A stretch of 44,567 nucleotides of DNA from positions 1 to 44,567 of the forward strand of contig CALVCT010000062.1 in the NCBI GenBank assembly GCA_944326055.1, in the 5' to 3' direction. Origin of the DNA: an uncultured Erysipelotrichaceae bacterium (GTDB taxonomy: Bacteria; Bacillota_I; Bacilli_A; Erysipelotrichales; Erysipelotrichaceae). The position numbers and the translations under genes are program-made. Below are positions 30,809 through 39,748 of this stretch, piece after piece (the first letter of the stretch is position 1; each line of letters opens with the position of its first letter). Below the pieces are notes generated by a model that saw only the letters and a list, made by a program, of their open reading frames with translations, had not been told where the DNA came from and did no database searches.

Positions 30809-31976
30809 GGGCTAATCCTCCTAGTCCTGTCTCTCTTAGTTCAGGTGATATCTTCTTACCTGTATAATTCATTGAATTAACGACCATGTCAAAAGAGACA
30901 CTATGATTGTGATACTTCGAGATATTGGTCGCAAGCTTGACAGCATCATAAGCCCTTAAGATCGCAACAGCATTTCTTTCAATACAAGGTATGATCACAT
31001 AGCCAAAGACCGGATCACAGGTTAGACCAAGATGATGTTCGATACCGACTTCTGCTGCATATTCGATTATCTCTATATCTTCATGAGCTAGATAAGCAAT
31101 AGCACTAGCTGCTAAAGCACAAGCCGTACCGATCTCTGCCTGGCACCCTCCAGTCGCCCCAGATATCGAAGCATTCTTTTTAATGACATCAGCGAATAGA
31201 CCACCTACCGCTAATGCTTCTGCCACTTCTTTCTTTGTGTATCCTTCATCATACAAAGAGCTGTAGACAAAACTGGCAACGACCCCACAAGAACCTAAAG
31301 TAGGTGCTGTGCAAACGGTCCCTCCATCTGCATTCTCTTCACTAGCTGCATAAGCATAAGCTAAACGTTTAAGATCGATATCTCCTTTCATATCGCCTTC
31401 TTTTTTTAGATAGTGGGCACTACGATAGACATTAAGTCTCTTATTTAACAGGCCCTCTTTACTAAGACCTCTAGTGACGCTTGCACACATGACATCGATA
31501 CAACTCATTAGATGATCGATAATGTCAGGCTCATAACGCAAGATGTAGCTTAAAATATCGATGCCTTCATCACATAGATAAGCTTTGATATCACAGATGT
31601 GATCTAGCGGATAGATCTCCTTCTCATCGCCAATATCGATGCCATCTACTTTTATCGCACCTCCACCAAGCGACTCGACACGCCAGACCATCTCCCTATC
31701 CTCATCATCATATCCTTTGATGATCATGATGTTGCGTGTCTCTTTATCTAAGTCATAGATGAAATGCACTTCAACTTTATCTCCTAAGATCTCTTTGATG
31801 ATCTCGTCAGTCTTATGTCCTTTACCAGTAAGAGCTAAAGAACCATAGAGCTCCACATCATAATGTTTGCATGGCCCATTATATTTAATAAATAATTCGA
31901 CGGCTCTTTTTGGCGCGATCGTGTGTGATGAACTAGGTCCTTTACCGATTCTAAAGATGTCTTTGATCGCTTGCAT
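30786..31976 (-). CDS. sdaA: L-serine dehydratase, iron-sulfur type, single chain
   Basis: A 396-residue fusion of the beta (about 1-140) and alpha domains of Fe-S L-serine ammonia-lyase, which converts serine to pyruvate and ammonia. GPSSSHT is near the N-terminus. The Fe-S cysteines are in GCQAEIGTAC and TCDPVFGYVIIPC, and ETGLGGLAL closes the protein. The usual TAPTNGAAG loop reads CTAPTLGSCG, with two extra cysteines, a clear deviation near the active site. It is shorter than the E. coli enzyme (454). ATG 31976 follows GGAG and lies inside the holA end. With ackA it suggests amino-acid fermentation. Confidence 0.88.
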   Translation of the reverse strand: MQAIKDIFRIGKGPSSSHTIAPKRAVELFIKYNGPCKHYDVELYGSLALTGKGHKTDEIIKEILGDKVEVHFIYDLDKETRNIMIIKGYDDEDREMVWRVESLGGGAIKVDGIDIGDEKEIYPLDHICDIKAYLCDEGIDILSYILRYEPDIIDHLMSCIDVMCASVTRGLSKEGLLNKRLNVYRSAHYLKKEGDMKGDIDLKRLAYAYAASEENADGGTVCTAPTLGSCGVVASFVYSSLYDEGYTKKEVAEALAVGGLFADVIKKNASISGATGGCQAEIGTACALAASAIAYLAHEDIEIIEYAAEVGIEHHLGLTCDPVFGYVIIPCIERNAVAILRAYDAVKLATNISKYHNHSVSFDMVVNSMNYTGKKISPELRETGLGGLALEFKEED

Positions 31977-32967
31977 GATACTCCTCCATTAGATCAACGA
32001 TAAATAATTCAAATCTTTCATAGTCATCAAGACCTGAGTTAGATTTTAGTGTCTGCTCAAGGGTCCCCAGACGATCTAGTATATCTAGAAAATCAGTGTC
32101 TTGATAACGATGCAATGTATCAAGAGTCAAACGGATACGAAACTCTTTTGAAGCAGTTCTTTTCATCATCTCTTGTGTACCAAAACCTTTTTTATCATAA
32201 TATTGGATCTCATTATAAAACCTTAATTGACTCGCCAAAAAAGCAATAAGATAAAAGACGGAGCTACCTAAAGCTTTGAAATCACGAGTTACCATGATTG
32301 CTTTACTAATATCTTTGGCAAAGATCGCATTTGAGAGGTCAAAGATCGCATCTTCGATACTACGATCACATATCTTCTTGATGACATCTTGATCGATAGG
32401 ATCAGGATATAGTGACAATACCTCCACATTAGCGATCAATTTCGTCAAAGATCCAGCTGCATAACTGACTAAAAGTTCACGATCTTTTTGAGTCAAAACT
32501 AAGCCATAATCCTTTAATATCGAAGCGACCTTTACTCGAAGATCACCATCAGATCTGCATGTCTTATGCACGATCTTATCTTTGTACTTCTTGAGCAAAG
32601 GATCGGTAGAACTATACTCTTTAGTCTCGCTATACATGATGAAATCGACTAGAGATAAAGGATCATCAAAATATCTTTCGATCTTTTTGATCGTTTTATC
32701 ATTCTCGTTTTTATCGATTCTCTCTTCATCTTTTTCCCCTTTTTTTCGTCTTGGCTTTAAAAAAGGTGGATCACGTAAGATGATAGCTTTCTTTTCCACA
32801 AGAAAAGGCAAGGTCTCAAGTTCTTCAAGTAAGGTATCGATATCGAAATTTCTGGCATTACCATCCATACGTACGACCGCCGTCTTGTCTATATCATGCT
32901 CAGCAAAGATCTTTTCGATCTCTTTTTTTATCAAATATACTTCATTGCCATCAAATAAATATATCAC
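31951..32967 (-). CDS. holA: DNA polymerase III delta subunit
   Basis: A 338-residue clamp-loader subunit that opens the beta clamp. The N-terminus MIYLFDGNEVYLIKKEIEKI and the LVSYAAGSLTKLIANVEVL region fit HolA. The GTG start overlaps the comEC TGA stop (GTGA). AGGG lies close upstream, and a TATAAT box ends 6 bases before the GTG. Position after comEC is conserved in Firmicutes. Confidence 0.92.
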   Translation of the reverse strand: MIYLFDGNEVYLIKKEIEKIFAEHDIDKTAVVRMDGNARNFDIDTLLEELETLPFLVEKKAIILRDPPFLKPRRKKGEKDEERIDKNENDKTIKKIERYFDDPLSLVDFIMYSETKEYSSTDPLLKKYKDKIVHKTCRSDGDLRVKVASILKDYGLVLTQKDRELLVSYAAGSLTKLIANVEVLSLYPDPIDQDVIKKICDRSIEDAIFDLSNAIFAKDISKAIMVTRDFKALGSSVFYLIAFLASQLRFYNEIQYYDKKGFGTQEMMKRTASKEFRIRLTLDTLHRYQDTDFLDILDRLGTLEQTLKSNSGLDDYERFELFIVDLMEEYHASDQRHL

Positions 32968-34802
32968 TGCCCTATTATAACAAATCCATCATTCTTCTTT
33001 AGAATGAACTTATCAAAATAAAGTTTGAATGCGATATCACCATCTTCTTTTGTCGTAAGATATGGGACTTGCCACCTTTCTAAAGTAGTGATCGTCTCAT
33101 CACTAGGATGACCATATTGCCCGCTGGTCGAAGCTACAGCTATATCGATATCATAGTTCATAAATAAGATATCATCACTGCCAGTCTTTGAACCATGATG
33201 TGAAAGCTTCAAGACATCAACATCGATAAAAGGTTCTCTTGAAACGATGTCTCTTTCAACATATCTCGAGATGTCACCAGTAAAAAGAAAGCCGATTCCA
33301 TTGAAGTATAGATGATAGACCAAACTGTCGTCATTAGCATCGTTATATATCCCTTTATTCAAAGAACGTAGGTATATCTCTTCAAGTCTCACATCGACAT
33401 GATCAAAAACGATCTTGTCAACTTTATAATCTTTGATCACATCAGCGATATTCGCACTATGATCACTGTCTCCGTGTGTGATGATGAGACGATCTATCTC
33501 ATAGATCCCTTCTTCTTGTAGGAAACGATCGAGTTTATAATAGTTATAAATATTACCCGTATCGATGAGAACGACTTCTCTATTAGCAAACGTCTTGATA
33601 AGTATCGCATCACCCTGCCCAACATCAATGAAAGAAACAGAAGGTGCTAGATTTGAGATATTTGAACTTATAAAAAGGAATGTTATGATCAGCTTCATGA
33701 TCTGGGAATCGATCTTAAATGATCTTATGAGCAGATATAGTAAAAAGATCATGGTAAGTGATATCTTCCCTCTTAGACTTATCATTAGATAAGGTGCTAT
33801 TACATCGATCTTAGAAAATATCACTTCCAAGACTTGATACAAAGGTCTGATAAATAACGCAATGATACCTAAAGTATCGAAAGTGATGATAAAATTCATA
33901 AAGAAACGATAGAAGATGATCTGAAATAGCGATAAGCTACCAAAGAAGTATGACTGTACTAGCATCATCACCATCTTAAAGTTAAAGATCGTTTTAAATT
34001 GAAAGATCGATCTTATCAGTACAGGAATGATGAAACGATAACTTTTGATCGCGAAAGGATCGTAGATCAAAAGTGTAATGATGCTGAAACTAAGTGCGAT
34101 CTTTTTATCCTTGATCTTTAATTTGTATATCTCAAAAATAAAGACACGGATGACACGATAATCGATGCCAAACAACAATATGACAATGATCATCGCAATG
34201 GCAAAAGAGTGCTTATTGGTCTTAAACAGTTTGATTATCGCCTTTAAAAAGAAATAAGTTGATAGTGAATATGAGATATCTGAAAAATAAGAACTGTCAT
34301 AATCATAATAACTAAAGATAGTTCGTCCAAGAAAATCTTTTAGAAAACTGTCTTCTTTATCCATCAACAGATCAAAAAGATGACCACGAAAAGTCAGGCT
34401 TTCAGATAGCTTCATCACTTCATCGCTGGTATATAAGATCGAATCATCTTTATCCTCAACATCACTATCGTCGAGCTTCTCAACTTTGATGATGTCATCG
34501 ATCGTAAGATCATTATGTCCATATATTTTAATATCATATAAGATATTTGAAGCAATGATCGATCCAGTCTTGACTTCTTTGACATAAAAATAAGCTCCGT
34601 GATACAGATCGGTCGATAGTCTAAGAAGGATTAAAAGGATGACAAAAAGGAAGATCAGTATTTCTTTTATACCTGTCCTATATATGATGAATACAAAACT
34701 TATAAGTAAGAGAAAGATGTTTTGTGTATAAAGTACCAGGAGTAAAGGGACAACGATGACAAAGATATCATCAAAGAGAAATCTTATCTTTGATCTTAGC
34801 AT
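32964..34802 (-). CDS. comEC: ComEC/Rec2-family DNA-uptake channel protein
   Basis: A membrane protein of about 612 residues that moves single-stranded DNA into the cytoplasm during transformation. It has N-terminal helices, a short soluble region, a multi-helix competence domain (about 180-400), and a C-terminal metallo-beta-lactamase-like domain with SFIDVGQGDAILI, LIDTG, THGDSDH and LSHHGSKTG. It is shorter than B. subtilis ComEC (about 776), mainly in the membrane part. The start is uncertain: ATG 34802 (weak GAGAAG upstream) or GTG 34823 seven codons earlier. It overlaps comEA, and holA starts on its stop. Confidence 0.9.
   Translation of the reverse strand: MLRSKIRFLFDDIFVIVVPLLLVLYTQNIFLLLISFVFIIYRTGIKEILIFLFVILLILLRLSTDLYHGAYFYVKEVKTGSIIASNILYDIKIYGHNDLTIDDIIKVEKLDDSDVEDKDDSILYTSDEVMKLSESLTFRGHLFDLLMDKEDSFLKDFLGRTIFSYYDYDSSYFSDISYSLSTYFFLKAIIKLFKTNKHSFAIAMIIVILLFGIDYRVIRVFIFEIYKLKIKDKKIALSFSIITLLIYDPFAIKSYRFIIPVLIRSIFQFKTIFNFKMVMMLVQSYFFGSLSLFQIIFYRFFMNFIITFDTLGIIALFIRPLYQVLEVIFSKIDVIAPYLMISLRGKISLTMIFLLYLLIRSFKIDSQIMKLIITFLFISSNISNLAPSVSFIDVGQGDAILIKTFANREVVLIDTGNIYNYYKLDRFLQEEGIYEIDRLIITHGDSDHSANIADVIKDYKVDKIVFDHVDVRLEEIYLRSLNKGIYNDANDDSLVYHLYFNGIGFLFTGDISRYVERDIVSREPFIDVDVLKLSHHGSKTGSDDILFMNYDIDIAVASTSGQYGHPSDETITTLERWQVPYLTTKEDGDIAFKLYFDKFILKKNDGFVIIGQ
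32974..32982 (-). promoter_or_regulatory. Possible extended -10 promoter directly before holA
   Basis: On the minus strand TGT then TATAAT (32979-32974), followed by 6 bases and the holA GTG. It lies within the last codons of comEC (encoding Val-Ile-Ile), so it could be coincidental. Confidence 0.3.
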
Positions 34803-35244
34803 ATGTCTTCTCTTTGATCCCACTTACTTCCATGATCTCTTCTAAATAACTAAAACCACCATTTCTTTCGCGGTATTCGATGATCTTTTCAGCTGTCGCT
34901 TTTCCGATACCAGTAAGCGTATCGAGCTCTTCGATAGTTGCACTATTTATAGAGATCTTCTTTTCTTCAGCTATTTGACCAACAACGATAACTTGATATG
35001 GGTATAGTGACCTCGTCAAGTTCAAAGATGATGTATCAGCGTCATCTAGAAGTATCGCCTCCATTAGGACATCTTCAATCGTCTCGCCTTTCTTTACTTC
35101 ATAAACTCCAGGGTTTTTCACAGCTCCCTTGACTTCTATTTCGTAAGTTTTTTCTTCATCGTTAATATCATAAGAGTTGACGCTGACAAATGATGCCAGC
35201 GTCAAAAAGAAGAAGAGTATCGTAACTATCGTCCTAATAAGCAT
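34771..35244 (-). CDS. comEA: Competence DNA-binding protein ComEA
   Basis: A 157-residue membrane-anchored DNA receptor. An N-terminal signal anchor (about 4-22) is followed by a SLBB-like region (EVKGAVKNPGVYEVKKGETI) and a C-terminal helix-hairpin-helix pair (SINSATIEELDTLTGIG ... IEYRERNGGF) that binds DNA. The only good ATG overlaps the stop of the upstream surface-protein gene and has no clear RBS, so translation is probably coupled to that gene. comEB is absent from its usual place after comEA. Confidence 0.94.
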   Translation of the reverse strand: MLIRTIVTILFFFLTLASFVSVNSYDINDEEKTYEIEVKGAVKNPGVYEVKKGETIEDVLMEAILLDDADTSSLNLTRSLYPYQVIVVGQIAEEKKISINSATIEELDTLTGIGKATAEKIIEYRERNGGFSYLEEIMEVSGIKEKTYAKIKDKISL

Positions 35245-37822
35245 TTTCTACAGCTGTTGGTACGATATAGGTATAGCGCCTTTTTATAGATGGTTCATCA
35301 GGTGGGATGATCAATAATTCATTGATCCGATAATAATCGACATGACCTTCGACCTTTTCTTTATTATCTATACTGAATGACGATCCATCAATTCGATATC
35401 CTGTTGGAGCTACCTTTTCATTTAAGATGATCTTTTCGTCATATGCGAGATCTTCGATGTAGATATGACCTTTTTTAACTTCTTTTTTTACACTGAAAAG
35501 ATAACTGTTACTTATTGGGTCATATACTTTGATCTCATATGTTCCATCATTTAATCCTGTGATATTGATTGGAAAGTCTGGTTTTAGCGCTCTTATCGAT
35601 TGACCGTCTTTAAAGATTTTGATCACCTTCTCACTATCTACATTTTCAAGATCACCTTCATTGATATTCAAAGCACCAGAGACATAGTAACCAAGAAAGA
35701 TATCATCAGTCTTTGAATCTTTATCGATAAGTACTTGGTGTGTAGCAGGATCTTTTTGTTTATAGATCTCAAAGCCAGCACCATTCAACAAGATATTCTG
35801 CTCAGAGTTAGTCTTATGAATGGCAATATCAGCTTCGATTTGTTTATTTTGGTAATTGATATTATAATAATCAGCCTCTTCCATATCACAAGGATCGAAG
35901 ATAAGGCATGGTGTTTGACTACCATATTCATAGCCTTTAGCCGGCATGGATTCACAGATAAGATATCTTTCATTTGCGAATAGACCATCAAAGGAAAGCG
36001 CGCCATCGTTTTCTGTATAAGCCTTAGCAATGTACGTTGCTTGTATGGTTCCCTTGCTTTCATCTAAGATAGTATCATCGCCCGTTGTGACGTAGATATC
36101 AGGTCTTTCTATGACTTCATATATGCAATAGTCATTTTCTCGCGCTTCTATCATCGGATTTCCGATATCATAGATAAGACGCTTTCGCCTTATGATATAT
36201 TGAGTATCTTCGATGATGATACTATAGTAGATATCATCTTTCATTGATAAGACTTCTAAGCTATCGGTAAGATCTTCTTGATCCTTGATGACTCTAACAT
36301 CAGAAAGCGGGTATAGTTCATAGCTTTCTTTTTGGACATAAGTACTCATTCCTTCAAGCATAAAAGGTAATGAATCATGATCCAGTTTTTTAACGATATA
36401 GCTATCAAGATGTTGGACCTTATCAAAAAGGAAGCTTTCACCATCAGATGTCATACCTTGAGCATCTATGAATAATAATTCTTGATCATCATCGACCTCA
36501 AGATGATCATTGAGATCATGTCTTTCGTTAACTGCGATAAAATAGACCTTCGAACCTGTATCTTCGATTTTTGATATAGTGAATTCAGTATCGTTGATAT
36601 AGTAGTCTGATTCCATATCATACTTTTGGATATTTACTTTAAATGATCGTCTAGGATTGATCTTCTTATAAGTGAAAGTCGTATCTTTCTTAATCTCGAT
36701 AAGCTCAGGTTCATCATCGATGATGTAGCGACTATCGCCCTCGATCTCTTGGATAAAATAATATCCAGCTTCAAGCGACAGTTCTGTTTCTCCTTTGACG
36801 ATTATTGGACTTACACCTTCCGCTTCTTTATCGATGATATAGCCACCGTCGCTTTCTTTAGCATGATATAAAGCAAATTTGATCTCGGCGTCGATCTTAT
36901 TATCAAGATCATCGACTTTTACTATCTTGAGTTTTCCTTCATCCTTGATAACTTCGATGTTAAGTGAAACCTCGCTATAAATCTTAGGTGCGATATCATC
37001 GAATCTATATAAGAACTGCACATGACTATCAGGCCGATATACTTCCCCAAAGTGGATTTCTTCTAAAGTGATAGGTTGTTTGAGGGTCAAATCGATATTC
37101 TTTATACTGGGCTCATCGTTAGTGATCTGAAATGTAAGTTTATCACCTTCGATCCTTATATCTTCAATACCATTACTAACTTCTATCTCATAGATATCCT
37201 CATCTAAGACTTTGTTTTTATCGATAAGTGTAACAGTATCGCCTACTTTATAACCATCGTTTTGCGCAAGATCAAATTCTGGTACGATGTCTTTAACATC
37301 CATATCTTCGACCATCGTTCTTATCGTTTCAACTTCGTCTTTGAAAAGTTCATAATCGGAACTCTCATGATCAAGATCGAATACATAATCAGCATAACTG
37401 AAATCTGAACATGGTAATGCTTCCCATAAGAGATAAGTCGCCGCAGCATATACGGCTGTCGTTTCATATGTAGGTTCAGGTTCAAGGATATTGTATGCAG
37501 CAACGATCTTTGACATCTCTAACGTTCTTTTCCTGTCGAATAGTGAGTGATCTCCTTTTGTATCAGTGTAAGTATGTTGTGCACCAAAAGATCGATAAGG
37601 ACTGATACAGAAATAAACTTCATCTTCGACCTTATTGTAGATCTTATGGATATCTACTTCATAGGCGTATGGCTCACTTAGATACATCGTATATTTGCCT
37701 TCCATATCGACATGCCATGTATCGCTTTCTGATGCAAAATGATCTGTAGAGTATATCTCGATAGGAAATAATGAGCTGATCACGATAAAGATGAGTGATG
37801 TGATAAGAAATGACCTTCGCAT
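35234..37822 (-). CDS. Secreted SpaA/CnaB-repeat protein with thioester-like N-terminal domain
   Basis: An 862-residue exported protein with a signal peptide (about 1-26). Residues about 40-180 resemble the thioester (TQXA) adhesin domain: Cys72 in YFCISP and YAAATYLLWE at 125-134. The thioester-forming Gln position holds Thr129. Several SpaA/CnaB-like beta domains follow, e.g. about 296-388 (K302, E359), about 592-660 (YLICESMPAKGY) and about 663-826 (K670, E802 in NEKVAPTGY). The Lys/Glu pairs could form isopeptide bonds. The C-terminus ends without LPXTG, hydrophobic helix or charged tail. GGAGGG precedes the ATG. It overlaps comEA by 11 bases. Probably a surface or pilin-like adhesin; how it is retained is unclear. 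Confidence 0.8.
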   Translation of the reverse strand: MRRSFLITSLIFIVISSLFPIEIYSTDHFASESDTWHVDMEGKYTMYLSEPYAYEVDIHKIYNKVEDEVYFCISPYRSFGAQHTYTDTKGDHSLFDRKRTLEMSKIVAAYNILEPEPTYETTAVYAAATYLLWEALPCSDFSYADYVFDLDHESSDYELFKDEVETIRTMVEDMDVKDIVPEFDLAQNDGYKVGDTVTLIDKNKVLDEDIYEIEVSNGIEDIRIEGDKLTFQITNDEPSIKNIDLTLKQPITLEEIHFGEVYRPDSHVQFLYRFDDIAPKIYSEVSLNIEVIKDEGKLKIVKVDDLDNKIDAEIKFALYHAKESDGGYIIDKEAEGVSPIIVKGETELSLEAGYYFIQEIEGDSRYIIDDEPELIEIKKDTTFTYKKINPRRSFKVNIQKYDMESDYYINDTEFTISKIEDTGSKVYFIAVNERHDLNDHLEVDDDQELLFIDAQGMTSDGESFLFDKVQHLDSYIVKKLDHDSLPFMLEGMSTYVQKESYELYPLSDVRVIKDQEDLTDSLEVLSMKDDIYYSIIIEDTQYIIRRKRLIYDIGNPMIEARENDYCIYEVIERPDIYVTTGDDTILDESKGTIQATYIAKAYTENDGALSFDGLFANERYLICESMPAKGYEYGSQTPCLIFDPCDMEEADYYNINYQNKQIEADIAIHKTNSEQNILLNGAGFEIYKQKDPATHQVLIDKDSKTDDIFLGYYVSGALNINEGDLENVDSEKVIKIFKDGQSIRALKPDFPINITGLNDGTYEIKVYDPISNSYLFSVKKEVKKGHIYIEDLAYDEKIILNEKVAPTGYRIDGSSFSIDNKEKVEGHVDYYRINELLIIPPDEPSIKRRYTYIVPTAVENAY

Positions 37823-37828
37823 AGTTTT

Positions 37829-37887
37829 CCCTCCTTACTTGTATAAAAGAGTAAGTTTTAAAACTACCCTCAAGTTTTAATAAACTT
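37829..37887 (-). promoter_or_regulatory. Leader of the SpaA-repeat gene: SD-flanking stem and palindrome
   Basis: Plus-strand CTTACT (37834-37839) pairs with AGTAAG (37850-37855), so the RNA has a 6-bp stem whose 3' arm touches the GGAGGG ribosome site (37829-37834). A perfect 12-base palindrome AGTTTTAAAACT lies at 37854-37865, and AAGTTT/AAACTT (37872-37887) spans the upstream stop. The leader shares the AAGTAAGGAGG motif with the gene before it. Confidence 0.4.
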
Positions 37888-38578
37888 CGATCATTTTTAT
37901 CGTCTCACCCAAGTCATGATAAAACTTAACAGGGTATGATCCTGGAGTCATTAGATCGACAGAACTGTAATCGATACTTACCTGCATATTAGAATCGACA
38001 CTATTTGCAAGTAGAGCATTTAGTTCAGCTACACTAGCAGCTGTTCTTATACTTAGATCTGCCACTTCGATATAAGGGTCCTTTTTCTGTATCTCTATTA
38101 CCTCTTCGTGATATATGATTTCCTCTGTAAGATCATCTGTCTGACTTCCTACATTGTCGATCTTTTCTGTATCCCTATCCTCTTCTTTTTCAATATAGAT
38201 CGGCTTTTCGATAACTTTTTCGATCGTGACGATCTCTTTTTCTTTCTTTCTAACGAGTAAATCATATTCAACATACACTCTTTTATCTTCATCATATATC
38301 ACGACCGCTTCTATCACTTTTGGACCCACATCTTCAGCTATCGTCACACCTTCAATGATGAGCTCATAAGGCATGAAGCTTTTGATCTCAAGATTGCTTG
38401 AAGGAAAAATCTGATCGCCCTCATAGACTATAAGTTCTTGATCTTTAATGATAATGATCGGCTTTATATCAGGATCTATTTTCATGATCTTTGCTTCATC
38501 TTTGTGCTCAAGATAGTAAAAGATCGCAAATAGTAAGATTGTCAAAGTAGAAAGTAAGAAGATGCACTTTTTAAGCAT
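37877..38578 (-). CDS. Membrane-anchored protein with two Ig-like domains, unknown function
   Basis: I do not know a named family for the whole 233-residue protein. A signal anchor (about 3-24, no lipobox) places the rest outside the cell. Residues about 40-108 and 175-233 look like short bacterial Ig-like beta domains; the last ends with MTPGSYPVKFYHDLGETIKMIEV, shown here only as a type. Between them is a charged linker rich in Lys-Glu pairs (about 109-170), probably a rigid stalk. GGAGG lies 6 bases before the ATG but is buried in a hairpin. The SpaA-repeat gene follows after about 55 bases, so the two likely act together at the surface. Confidence 0.7.
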   Translation of the reverse strand: MLKKCIFLLSTLTILLFAIFYYLEHKDEAKIMKIDPDIKPIIIIKDQELIVYEGDQIFPSSNLEIKSFMPYELIIEGVTIAEDVGPKVIEAVVIYDEDKRVYVEYDLLVRKKEKEIVTIEKVIEKPIYIEKEEDRDTEKIDNVGSQTDDLTEEIIYHEEVIEIQKKDPYIEVADLSIRTAASVAELNALLANSVDSNMQVSIDYSSVDLMTPGSYPVKFYHDLGETIKMIEVY

Positions 38579-38610
38579 AAAAAACCTCCTTACTTATAAA
38601 TAAGGAGGTT
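38579..38610 (-). terminator. Terminator-like hairpin that contains the next gene's RBS
   Basis: On the plus strand AACCTCCTTA (38583-38592) pairs perfectly with TAAGGAGGTT (38601-38610) over an 8-base loop. Read on the minus strand, the stem comes 16 bases after the greA stop and is followed by six T, as in an intrinsic terminator. The GGAGG of the next gene (38589-38585) is the 3' arm, and its ATG (38578) follows the T-run directly. Confidence 0.7.
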
Positions 38611-38625
38611 ATATCGAAGATCACT

Positions 38626-39093
38626 TTATTTTATCGATAAGATCTTGACATCATATGGTATGTCGACATTGACAGTCACAGTCGCTCCTGCTCTTTGATC
38701 TAGGATAGCTTCAGCTAGCGGTGTGACATTAGATAATTTACCATTCAATGGATCAGATTCGATCGTACCAACGATCGTATAAGTATTGACCATCTTTGTA
38801 TCTAACTCTTCGATCTCCACAGTCGAGCCGACGCGCACATAGCGATTATCAGCATTATCTTGGATGATCACAGCATTTTTGATCTGTGCTTCCAATAATT
38901 TTATACGTGCTTCATTTTGTGATTGACGTTCTCTTGCTGCATCATAATCAGCGTTTTCCGAAAGGTCGCCCTGTGCCCTAGCTTCACGAAGTTCATCGAT
39001 GATGATCTCTCTTTCGACTTGTTTTAAGTTATTGAGCTCATCTTTTAATTTCTGAAGACCTTCTTCAGTTACATATACTTTCTCGTCTGCCAT
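38626..39093 (-). CDS. greA: Transcription elongation factor GreA
   Basis: A 155-residue factor that stimulates transcript cleavage in backtracked RNA polymerase. The N-terminal coiled coil carries the acidic tip (REARAQGDLSENADYDAARE), and the C-terminal FKBP-like domain follows. GGAGG precedes the ATG. It comes after udk as in B. subtilis, with a hairpin just beyond its stop. Confidence 0.96.
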   Translation of the reverse strand: MADEKVYVTEEGLQKLKDELNNLKQVEREIIIDELREARAQGDLSENADYDAARERQSQNEARIKLLEAQIKNAVIIQDNADNRYVRVGSTVEIEELDTKMVNTYTIVGTIESDPLNGKLSNVTPLAEAILDQRAGATVTVNVDIPYDVKILSIK

Positions 39094-39127: not shown

Positions 39128-39748
39128 CTAATATAAGATACTAGCAATTTTCGTCATCAGTAAGTCGATGGCGACATAGTTTTGACCGCCTTCAGGGATG
39201 ATGATATCTGCGTAGCGCTTGCTAGGTTCGATAAAACGTTCGTGCATCACTCTTACGACGCTCATATATTGATCGATCACTGAATCAATAGTTCGTTCGC
39301 GTTCTTTGACATCTCTTTTTAAACGCCTGATGAAACGCACGTCAGCAGGTGTGTCAACAAAGACTTTGATGTCAAGAAGTTCGCGAATACTCTCATCTTC
39401 TAAAACAAATAGGCCTTCTAAAATGATGACATCTGCGCTCTCTACATGTTCTGTTTTATCAGTACGAGTATAAGAAACATAATCATAAATAGGCTTTTCA
39501 ATAGCCTTGCCTGCGATCAGCATTTTAAGTTGACGTATAAGAAGATCGTGATCGAACGCAAGTGGATGGTCATAATTGACTTTTAATCGCTCTTGCATAG
39601 TCATATTGCTTTGATCATTATAGTAGTCATCTTCTTTTATACGTATGACAGTATTATACTCATCAAAAGCATCTAGAAGCTTACAAGCTATCGAAGTCTT
39701 TCCTGAGGCACTACCGCCTGCGATCCCGATGATCAGTGGTCTTTCCAT
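39128..39748 (-). CDS. udk: Uridine kinase
   Basis: A 206-residue P-loop kinase that phosphorylates uridine and cytidine in pyrimidine salvage. The P-loop GIAGGSASGKTS is at about residues 8-19, followed by YDHPLAFDHDLL and YDYVSYTRTDKTEHV. AGGAGAG is close to the ATG. mltG-udk-greA is the conserved Firmicutes order. Confidence 0.96.
   Translation of the reverse strand: MERPLIIGIAGGSASGKTSIACKLLDAFDEYNTVIRIKEDDYYNDQSNMTMQERLKVNYDHPLAFDHDLLIRQLKMLIAGKAIEKPIYDYVSYTRTDKTEHVESADVIILEGLFVLEDESIRELLDIKVFVDTPADVRFIRRLKRDVKERERTIDSVIDQYMSVVRVMHERFIEPSKRYADIIIPEGGQNYVAIDLLMTKIASILY

Follow-up and report, generated by a model that had tools for sequence, protein, structure and literature searches.

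Gene content and organization of the locus

The window analysed in this work is a stretch of 44,567 nt, corresponding to one contig of a 1.38-Mb genome (completeness 98.5 %) of an uncultured Erysipelotrichaceae bacterium. All genes of its udk-to-holA block were called on the minus strand (Table 1), and these calls agree with the first-pass annotation in placing two surface-protein genes between udk-greA and comEA-comEC-holA, i.e. those of a 233-aa protein with Ig-like domains (Ig) and of an 862-aa TIE-type adhesin (TIE). As in the comEA-comEC operon of Bacillus, comEA is followed by comEC and ComEA carries both an SLBB/oligomerization domain and an HhH domain (cf. PMC9747964); unlike in that operon, two surface-protein genes precede comEA and comEB is absent.

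The block alaS–ireB–ruvX–DUF1292–mltG–udk–greA–…–comEA–comEC–holA is syntenic across the family, so that a conserved position is by itself weak evidence of a functional link. Similarly, gene overlaps are commonplace in the block (11 nt for TIE/comEA, 53 nt for comEA/comEC and 4 nt for comEC/holA) and the first of them is thus, on its own, weak evidence of coupling. The proposal that this overlap ties translation of the SpaA-domain protein to comEA starts from a real feature and is plausible, but the arrangement is an ordinary one. GATC sites occur at 13.1 per kb in the TIE gene and 22.8 per kb in the Ig gene, versus 15.2 per kb in the rest of the window, and the GC content of the pair is 0.36, against 0.385. 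The core-like GATC density noticed previously is therefore found again; as an argument for residence, it is compatible but weak.

Table 1. Positions of the features discussed (window coordinates, or locus and coordinates for other genomes)
Feature	Position	Strand	Remarks
udk	39128-39748	-	
greA	38626-39093	-	Upstream neighbour; hairpin between greA and Ig gene
Terminator-like hairpin	38583-38610	-	12-bp stem, loop of 4 nt, U-run; greA/Ig intergenic
233-aa Ig protein gene	37877-38578	-	N-terminal TM helix; two Ig-like domains linked by a charged, disordered stalk
862-aa TIE-type adhesin gene	35234-37822	-	Pfam SpaA, orthologue TED, profile matches 6FWV/6FX6, Foldseek
Predicted thioester domain	36947-37717	-	About residues 36-292; Cys72 and Gln269; accessory TQXXPhiW Gln replaced by Thr129
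Predicted CnaB/SpaA domain 1	36656-36937	-	K302, E359, N389
Predicted CnaB/SpaA domain 2	35840-36643	-	Large insert; K400, E624, N659; C623 and C639
Predicted CnaB/SpaA domain 3	35318-35833	-	K670, E802, N834
C-terminal tail LLIIPPDEPSIKRRYTYIVPTAVENAY	35237-35317	-	IPxTG, sometimes a TM helix, at this place in mobile/paralogous SpaA proteins
comEA	34771-35244	-	TM, SLBB/oligomerization domain and HhH; initial 11 nt shared with TIE gene
comEC	32964-34823	-	
holA	31951-32967	-	Last gene of apparent operon
Other greA-comEA inserts (g56, G137)	L221:1267-5952, L222:1180-5839, L223:1153-6969		
Joins of Ig N-terminal membrane part and ComEC C-terminal part	L235:2947-3501, L236:878-1480, L231:3263-3876, L237:3250-3620		
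Eroded ComEA SLBB/oligomerization domain (g3 subclade)	L126:9906-10355, L229:2194-2652, L233:194-646		
Mobile-type SpaA/TIE loci	L116:4491-8311, L216:3572-12375, L218:1087-6919, L220:320-5392		
SpaA proteins beside WXG100-like genes (G003, G007)	L112:3073-9338, L113:5884-12188		
SpaA protein upstream of type IV secretion-like genes (G005)	L111:1-8999		
1142-aa SpaA-domain protein and its G008 relative	L107:2100-5528, L108:4038-6863		

Architecture and reactive residues of the TIE protein

By its sequence, the 862-aa protein is a TIE-type adhesin, with a predicted signal peptide, a class II thioester domain (TED) and three CnaB/SpaA domains. Pfam SpaA was matched in four stretches of the protein, and Pfam TED in two of four orthologues. 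A profile built from these four sequences retrieved the TIE protein of B. anthracis (6FWV, E 2.5e-12) and the TIE thioester domain of S. aureus (6FX6, E 2e-8), and the same two proteins came first and second in Foldseek. As the single AlphaFold model is weak (pLDDT 62), the domain assignments rest on sequence profiles and conserved residues. The first-pass annotation had described an 862-residue SpaA-repeat protein; the SpaA domains stand, the N-terminal thioester domain had been missed.

Residue conservation was scored on 17 aligned comEA-linked TIE proteins. In class II TEDs, the bond joins the Cys of a [YFL]C motif to a Gln located 170-205 residues later (PMC6194298). Cys72 lies within FCIS, which fits the bond-Cys motif [YFL]C-Phi-zeta (FC in 17/17), and Gln269, found 197 residues further on and hence within the expected spacing of ~170-205, is likewise invariant (17/17); the thioester would be expected to form in the window protein. 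Another motif, TQXXPhiW, is reported in all predicted TEDs, and its Gln is distinct from the bond Gln and is not needed for bond formation (PMC6194298). This accessory Gln is replaced by Thr129 in the window protein and by Ala in G008 and G002, and retained in the other 15 aligned sequences; no further reactive-motif residue has been lost in the window protein or the two proteins nearest to it. Taking it for the thioester Gln, and the bond consequently for lost in the window species, was considered and rejected, the bond Gln being the conserved Gln269 (PMC6194298).

The isopeptide triad of the first CnaB domain is invariant in the seven members having this domain, which is missing from ten g3 members, and that of the second is invariant in 17/17. 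In the third, K and E are found in 17/17 and N in 16/17 (N834 being Asp in G138). The dN/dS ratios, indicative only since dS is near saturation, were 0.106 and 0.126 for the TIE gene in two pairs and 0.121 for comEC in one pair, i.e. signs of purifying selection on the TIE gene. That the two genes are decaying leftovers without present function could be argued from the repeated losses reported below, the missing accessory Gln in the window lineage and the lack of an anchor. Against this, the Cys/Gln pair and the isopeptide triads (N834 apart) are invariant, dN/dS is well under 1 and full-length open frames persist in many lineages at 25-65 % identity, so that this explanation, already disfavoured, is very improbable.

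The Ig protein and possible retention of TIE on the cell surface

The predicted model of the Ig protein comprises a TM helix (residues 2-30), an Ig-like domain (41-112), a disordered stalk (115-169) and a second domain (171-233), and its Foldseek neighbours have Rib, internalin K and Big_3 folds, which bears out its earlier description as a membrane-anchored protein with two Ig-like domains on a charged stalk. It has no Pfam match of its own; its orthologues, present in 9/9 genus genomes, give weak matches to Big_3/Bact_surface_Ig-like.

Neither an LPXTG motif nor a C-terminal membrane helix was found in the 862-aa protein, and none of the four full-length g1 TIE proteins has a C-terminal hydrophobic segment. 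Searches for sortase (PF04203) were negative in all nine genus genomes and detected the B. subtilis, C. glutamicum and L. lactis controls. The TIE protein of G132 still ends in IIIPNTGCSKRY, and shorter remnants occur in other members. Given a TIE protein devoid of a wall-sorting signal in a genus where no sortase was found, the adjacent membrane-anchored Ig protein would be its likeliest dock. The g3 tail IPKTCIGD was also considered as a sorting motif and discarded: its last residues overlap the beginning of comEA (MYRRL), which is read in a different frame, and conservation of the tail therefore carries no independent weight. The possibility of a SpaA::ComEA frameshift fusion was dropped because ComEA would then face the cytosol.

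Comparison with known systems

The closest known protein, judging from its published description, is TIEpLS20, i.e. p34 of the conjugative plasmid pLS20 of Bacillus subtilis, which is needed for efficient conjugation and whose Cys mutant is inactive (PMC8092201). Both proteins have a signal peptide, a class II TED (Cys68/Gln256 in TIEpLS20, Cys72/Gln269 here) and CnaB domains, lack an LPXTG or TM anchor, and are linked to DNA transfer, genetically for TIEpLS20 and by locus for the window protein. TIEpLS20 is plasmid-borne and conjugative, whereas the window gene is chromosomal, heads comEA-comEC and has a membrane-anchored Ig partner; moreover, no toast-rack C-terminal domain was identified in the window protein, unlike in TIEpLS20. 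TIEpLS20 works without sortases, as the window protein probably would too, and its authors raise the question of what retains it at the cell surface (PMC8092201). If our proposal is true, a membrane-bound Ig partner would answer how anchorless TIE proteins stay on cells.

BaTIE and SaTIE (6FWV, 6FX6; PMC6194298) share with the window protein the order of TED and CnaB domains and the class II Cys/Gln spacing, but are anchored by sortase through an LPXTG motif and have a TM helix; neither feature, nor the TQXXPhiW Gln, is present in the window protein. CnaB/SpaA domains are also common to sortase-assembled SpaA-type pilins, from which the window protein differs by having no sorting signal, by belonging to a genus where no sortase was found and by scoring well under the NF033902 cut-off.

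A hairpin separates greA from the pair

The terminator-like hairpin downstream of greA (z -4.6 in the window) contains in its 3' arm the AAGGAGG that is the Shine-Dalgarno sequence of the Ig gene, 6 nt before the ATG. A comparable hairpin follows greA in 26/30 relatives carrying the Ig gene and in most carriers immediately precedes the Ig start codon; none was found after udk (0/29), mltG (0/28) or holA (0/20), the other breaks being after ireB (13/28) and ruvX (5/12). In g3, g39 and g62, the stem is ~10 bp long with AGGAG in the loop region, versus the 12-bp stem with AAGGAGG in the 3' arm in the window. Over 18 aligned sequences, 96.5 % of the cells pair and five pairs are changed on both sides, which was matched by 0/500 shuffles and collapsed in slid controls, the relatedness of the sequences being a caveat to this covariation. 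No Rfam family matches the hairpin; a PyrG_leader match (E 0.78, far below gathering) was judged to be due to chance. Such a covarying hairpin without Rfam match, uniting a terminator-like stem and U-run with the ribosome-binding site of the leading comE-operon gene, also occurs at L196, L197, L195, L232 and others.

As the hairpin separates greA from the pair, the latter falls on the comE side, and the Ig and TIE genes would stand at the head of the comE operon, with co-transcription predicted from the gene overlap, the terminator-like boundary after greA and the deletion scars described below. In G144, where Ig and TIE have been lost, the same hairpin type precedes comEA, which indicates that it belongs to the operon and not to the Ig gene. 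Uniting terminator and ribosome-binding site, the hairpin offers a concrete control point for a DNA-uptake operon and could act as an attenuator, with termination and ribosome binding in competition. The fuller reading, in which a covalent thioester adhesin and its membrane dock are built into a natural-transformation operon switched by this conserved hairpin and bond competent cells to a surface bearing DNA, appears unlikely as a whole; the hairpin would then be at once the greA terminator and the ribosome-binding site of the first gene, and ribosome binding could favour read-through.

Distribution and evolution of the pair

We surveyed 273 genomes of the family plus fetched loci. The order greA–Ig–TIE–comEA–comEC–holA was found in about 20 species of three genera (g1, g3 and g39), greA–Ig–TIE–comEA being complete on one contig in 15 of them (four g1, eleven g3) and broken off where contigs end in the five others (G002, G138, G157, G168 and G132). 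Such recurrence at the same place is not a matter of chance. Ig without TIE lies between greA and comEA in ten species of four genera (G001, G003, G005, G007, G156, G170, G161, G143, G131 and G235), and TIE without Ig was never seen at this locus in the genomes surveyed. Most other sampled genera have comEA directly 3' of greA and no pair. The genes had initially been regarded as resident, with a search of related genomes for the pair beside comEA put forward as a check and its absence from all relatives as a refutation; its persistence next to comEA in about 20 species upholds residence. Named relatives retrieved by an alignment-based scan were three MAGs of uncultured Erysipelotrichaceae/Bacillota, and a scan of named genomes with a single protein gave no match.

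Other genes also occupy the greA-comEA gap in the family, i.e. PEMT, GH3-like and GGDEF/HD genes in genus g56 (G217, G218) and, in G137, a gene for a 1938-aa TM surface protein with Flg_new repeats.

In a tree of the neighbouring genes, whose deep nodes are unevenly supported and which has few columns for some taxa, the carriers form one group of g1, g62, g39 and g3. One gain followed by repeated TIE losses would fit best: while comEA stayed, TIE was lost at least seven times and Ig twice, so that the adhesin is at most accessory. Vertical inheritance of the pair is established at the sequence level.

In mobile-type loci of the family, sortase genes lie next to genes for SpaA/TIE proteins with C-terminal IPxTG-like motifs, and some of these loci also encode Ig-domain proteins; they are a possible source module. 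In the TED tree, comEA-linked proteins cluster with two mobile proteins (0.97); the resolution of this tree is low, the mobile copies being candidate ancestors. Together with the TIEpLS20 precedent (PMC8092201), these loci and this clustering would suit a domesticated mating-pair module of a conjugative element, still acting in cell-cell contact for conjugation or aggregation. However, there are no mobility genes at the locus, inheritance has been vertical over several genera, the sorting motif and sortase have been lost and the TED tree gives no direction of transfer; we regard this origin and role as improbable.

Natural deletions and competence genes

In four g3 genomes (G152, G154, G155 and G167), a deletion has brought the beginning of the Ig gene up against the last part of comEC. 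TIE and comEA are missing, as are the Ig ectodomain and the greater part of comEC; the hairpin is kept and the remnant leads into holA. The join is in frame in G154 and G167 (184- and 200-aa fusions leading into holA) and out of frame in G155. From their differing junctions and tree positions, the deletions imply at least three independent events. They fit a single transcription unit that is controlled by signals located upstream of Ig and extends as far as holA. No genome surveyed has an intact Ig/TIE pair with comEA/comEC lost. The loss of comEA/comEC is thus accompanied by that of the pair, a pattern that contiguity alone could also yield since deletions remove contiguous genes.

The window's genome contains comGA (E 1.3e-80), comGB, a short ORF whose start is typical of a ComGC-like pilin, and then comGD- and comGF-like genes; with these comG genes present, the uptake pilus is probably intact. 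In a g3 subclade that has lost Ig/TIE and kept comEA, ComEA retains its HhH part but has a badly eroded SLBB/oligomerization domain; other genera without the pair keep this domain.

Putative role of the pair

The gene order, the domain architecture, the conserved reactive residues, vertical inheritance, signs of purifying selection and the terminator-like boundary after greA are directly readable in the sequences. Co-expression of the pair with comEA and docking of TIE on Ig are likely inferences. That the two are surface proteins, as stated in the first-pass annotation, is upheld; that they form a joint surface structure linked to DNA uptake or attachment, as also suggested there, is a possibility. 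We propose, with a probability of roughly 0.4, that the pair forms the first genes of the comE operon and that TIE, docked on Ig, holds the competent cell at a DNA source during uptake. The 862-aa protein would be secreted as a TIE adhesin, and its class II thioester domain, extended on CnaB domains that isopeptide bonds make rigid, would form a covalent link with an amine of another surface. With the membrane-anchored Ig protein serving as dock, the pair would keep the competent cell against a surface or a neighbour supplying DNA, and uptake itself would proceed through the ComG pilus, ComEA and ComEC. Maintenance of the two genes together and in place in ~20 species suggests that attachment and DNA uptake may go together. 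Since most of the family lacks the pair and has comEA right after greA, DNA uptake has no general need for it.

Known roles of TED adhesins are host attachment and, in one case, conjugation (PMC8092201); a search of a library of open papers retrieved none tied to natural transformation. The role of the pair in DNA uptake is set against a slightly less probable competitor, i.e. an ordinary adhesin for host or mucus colonisation using the comE operon just as an expression site, the link to comEA being positional and unconnected with DNA uptake. Colonisation is the function of most TED adhesins, TIE has frequently been lost with comEA kept, unrelated genes fill the same gap (G137; G217, G218), TIE/SpaA paralogues occur elsewhere in the genus, and an adhesin without any such link could equally show the synteny and the shared deletions. 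What argues for DNA uptake instead is that the pair lies downstream of the greA hairpin and heads the comE operon, an arrangement conserved over three genera, and that 4/4 deletions of comEA/comEC also took the pair, none sparing it. If the link between the pair and uptake is real, the transformation programme of gut commensals would include surface contact.

Other SpaA-domain proteins

The window's genome encodes a second SpaA-domain protein of 1142 aa, which has a relative in G008 and ends in a Cys-containing tail, ELTCAEKYGDGYIWSDxYxAC. In G003 and G007, TM-anchored SpaA proteins of 1.45 kaa adjoin WXG100-like (type VII secretion) genes, and in G005 a TM-anchored SpaA protein is encoded just upstream of conjugative type IV secretion-like genes.
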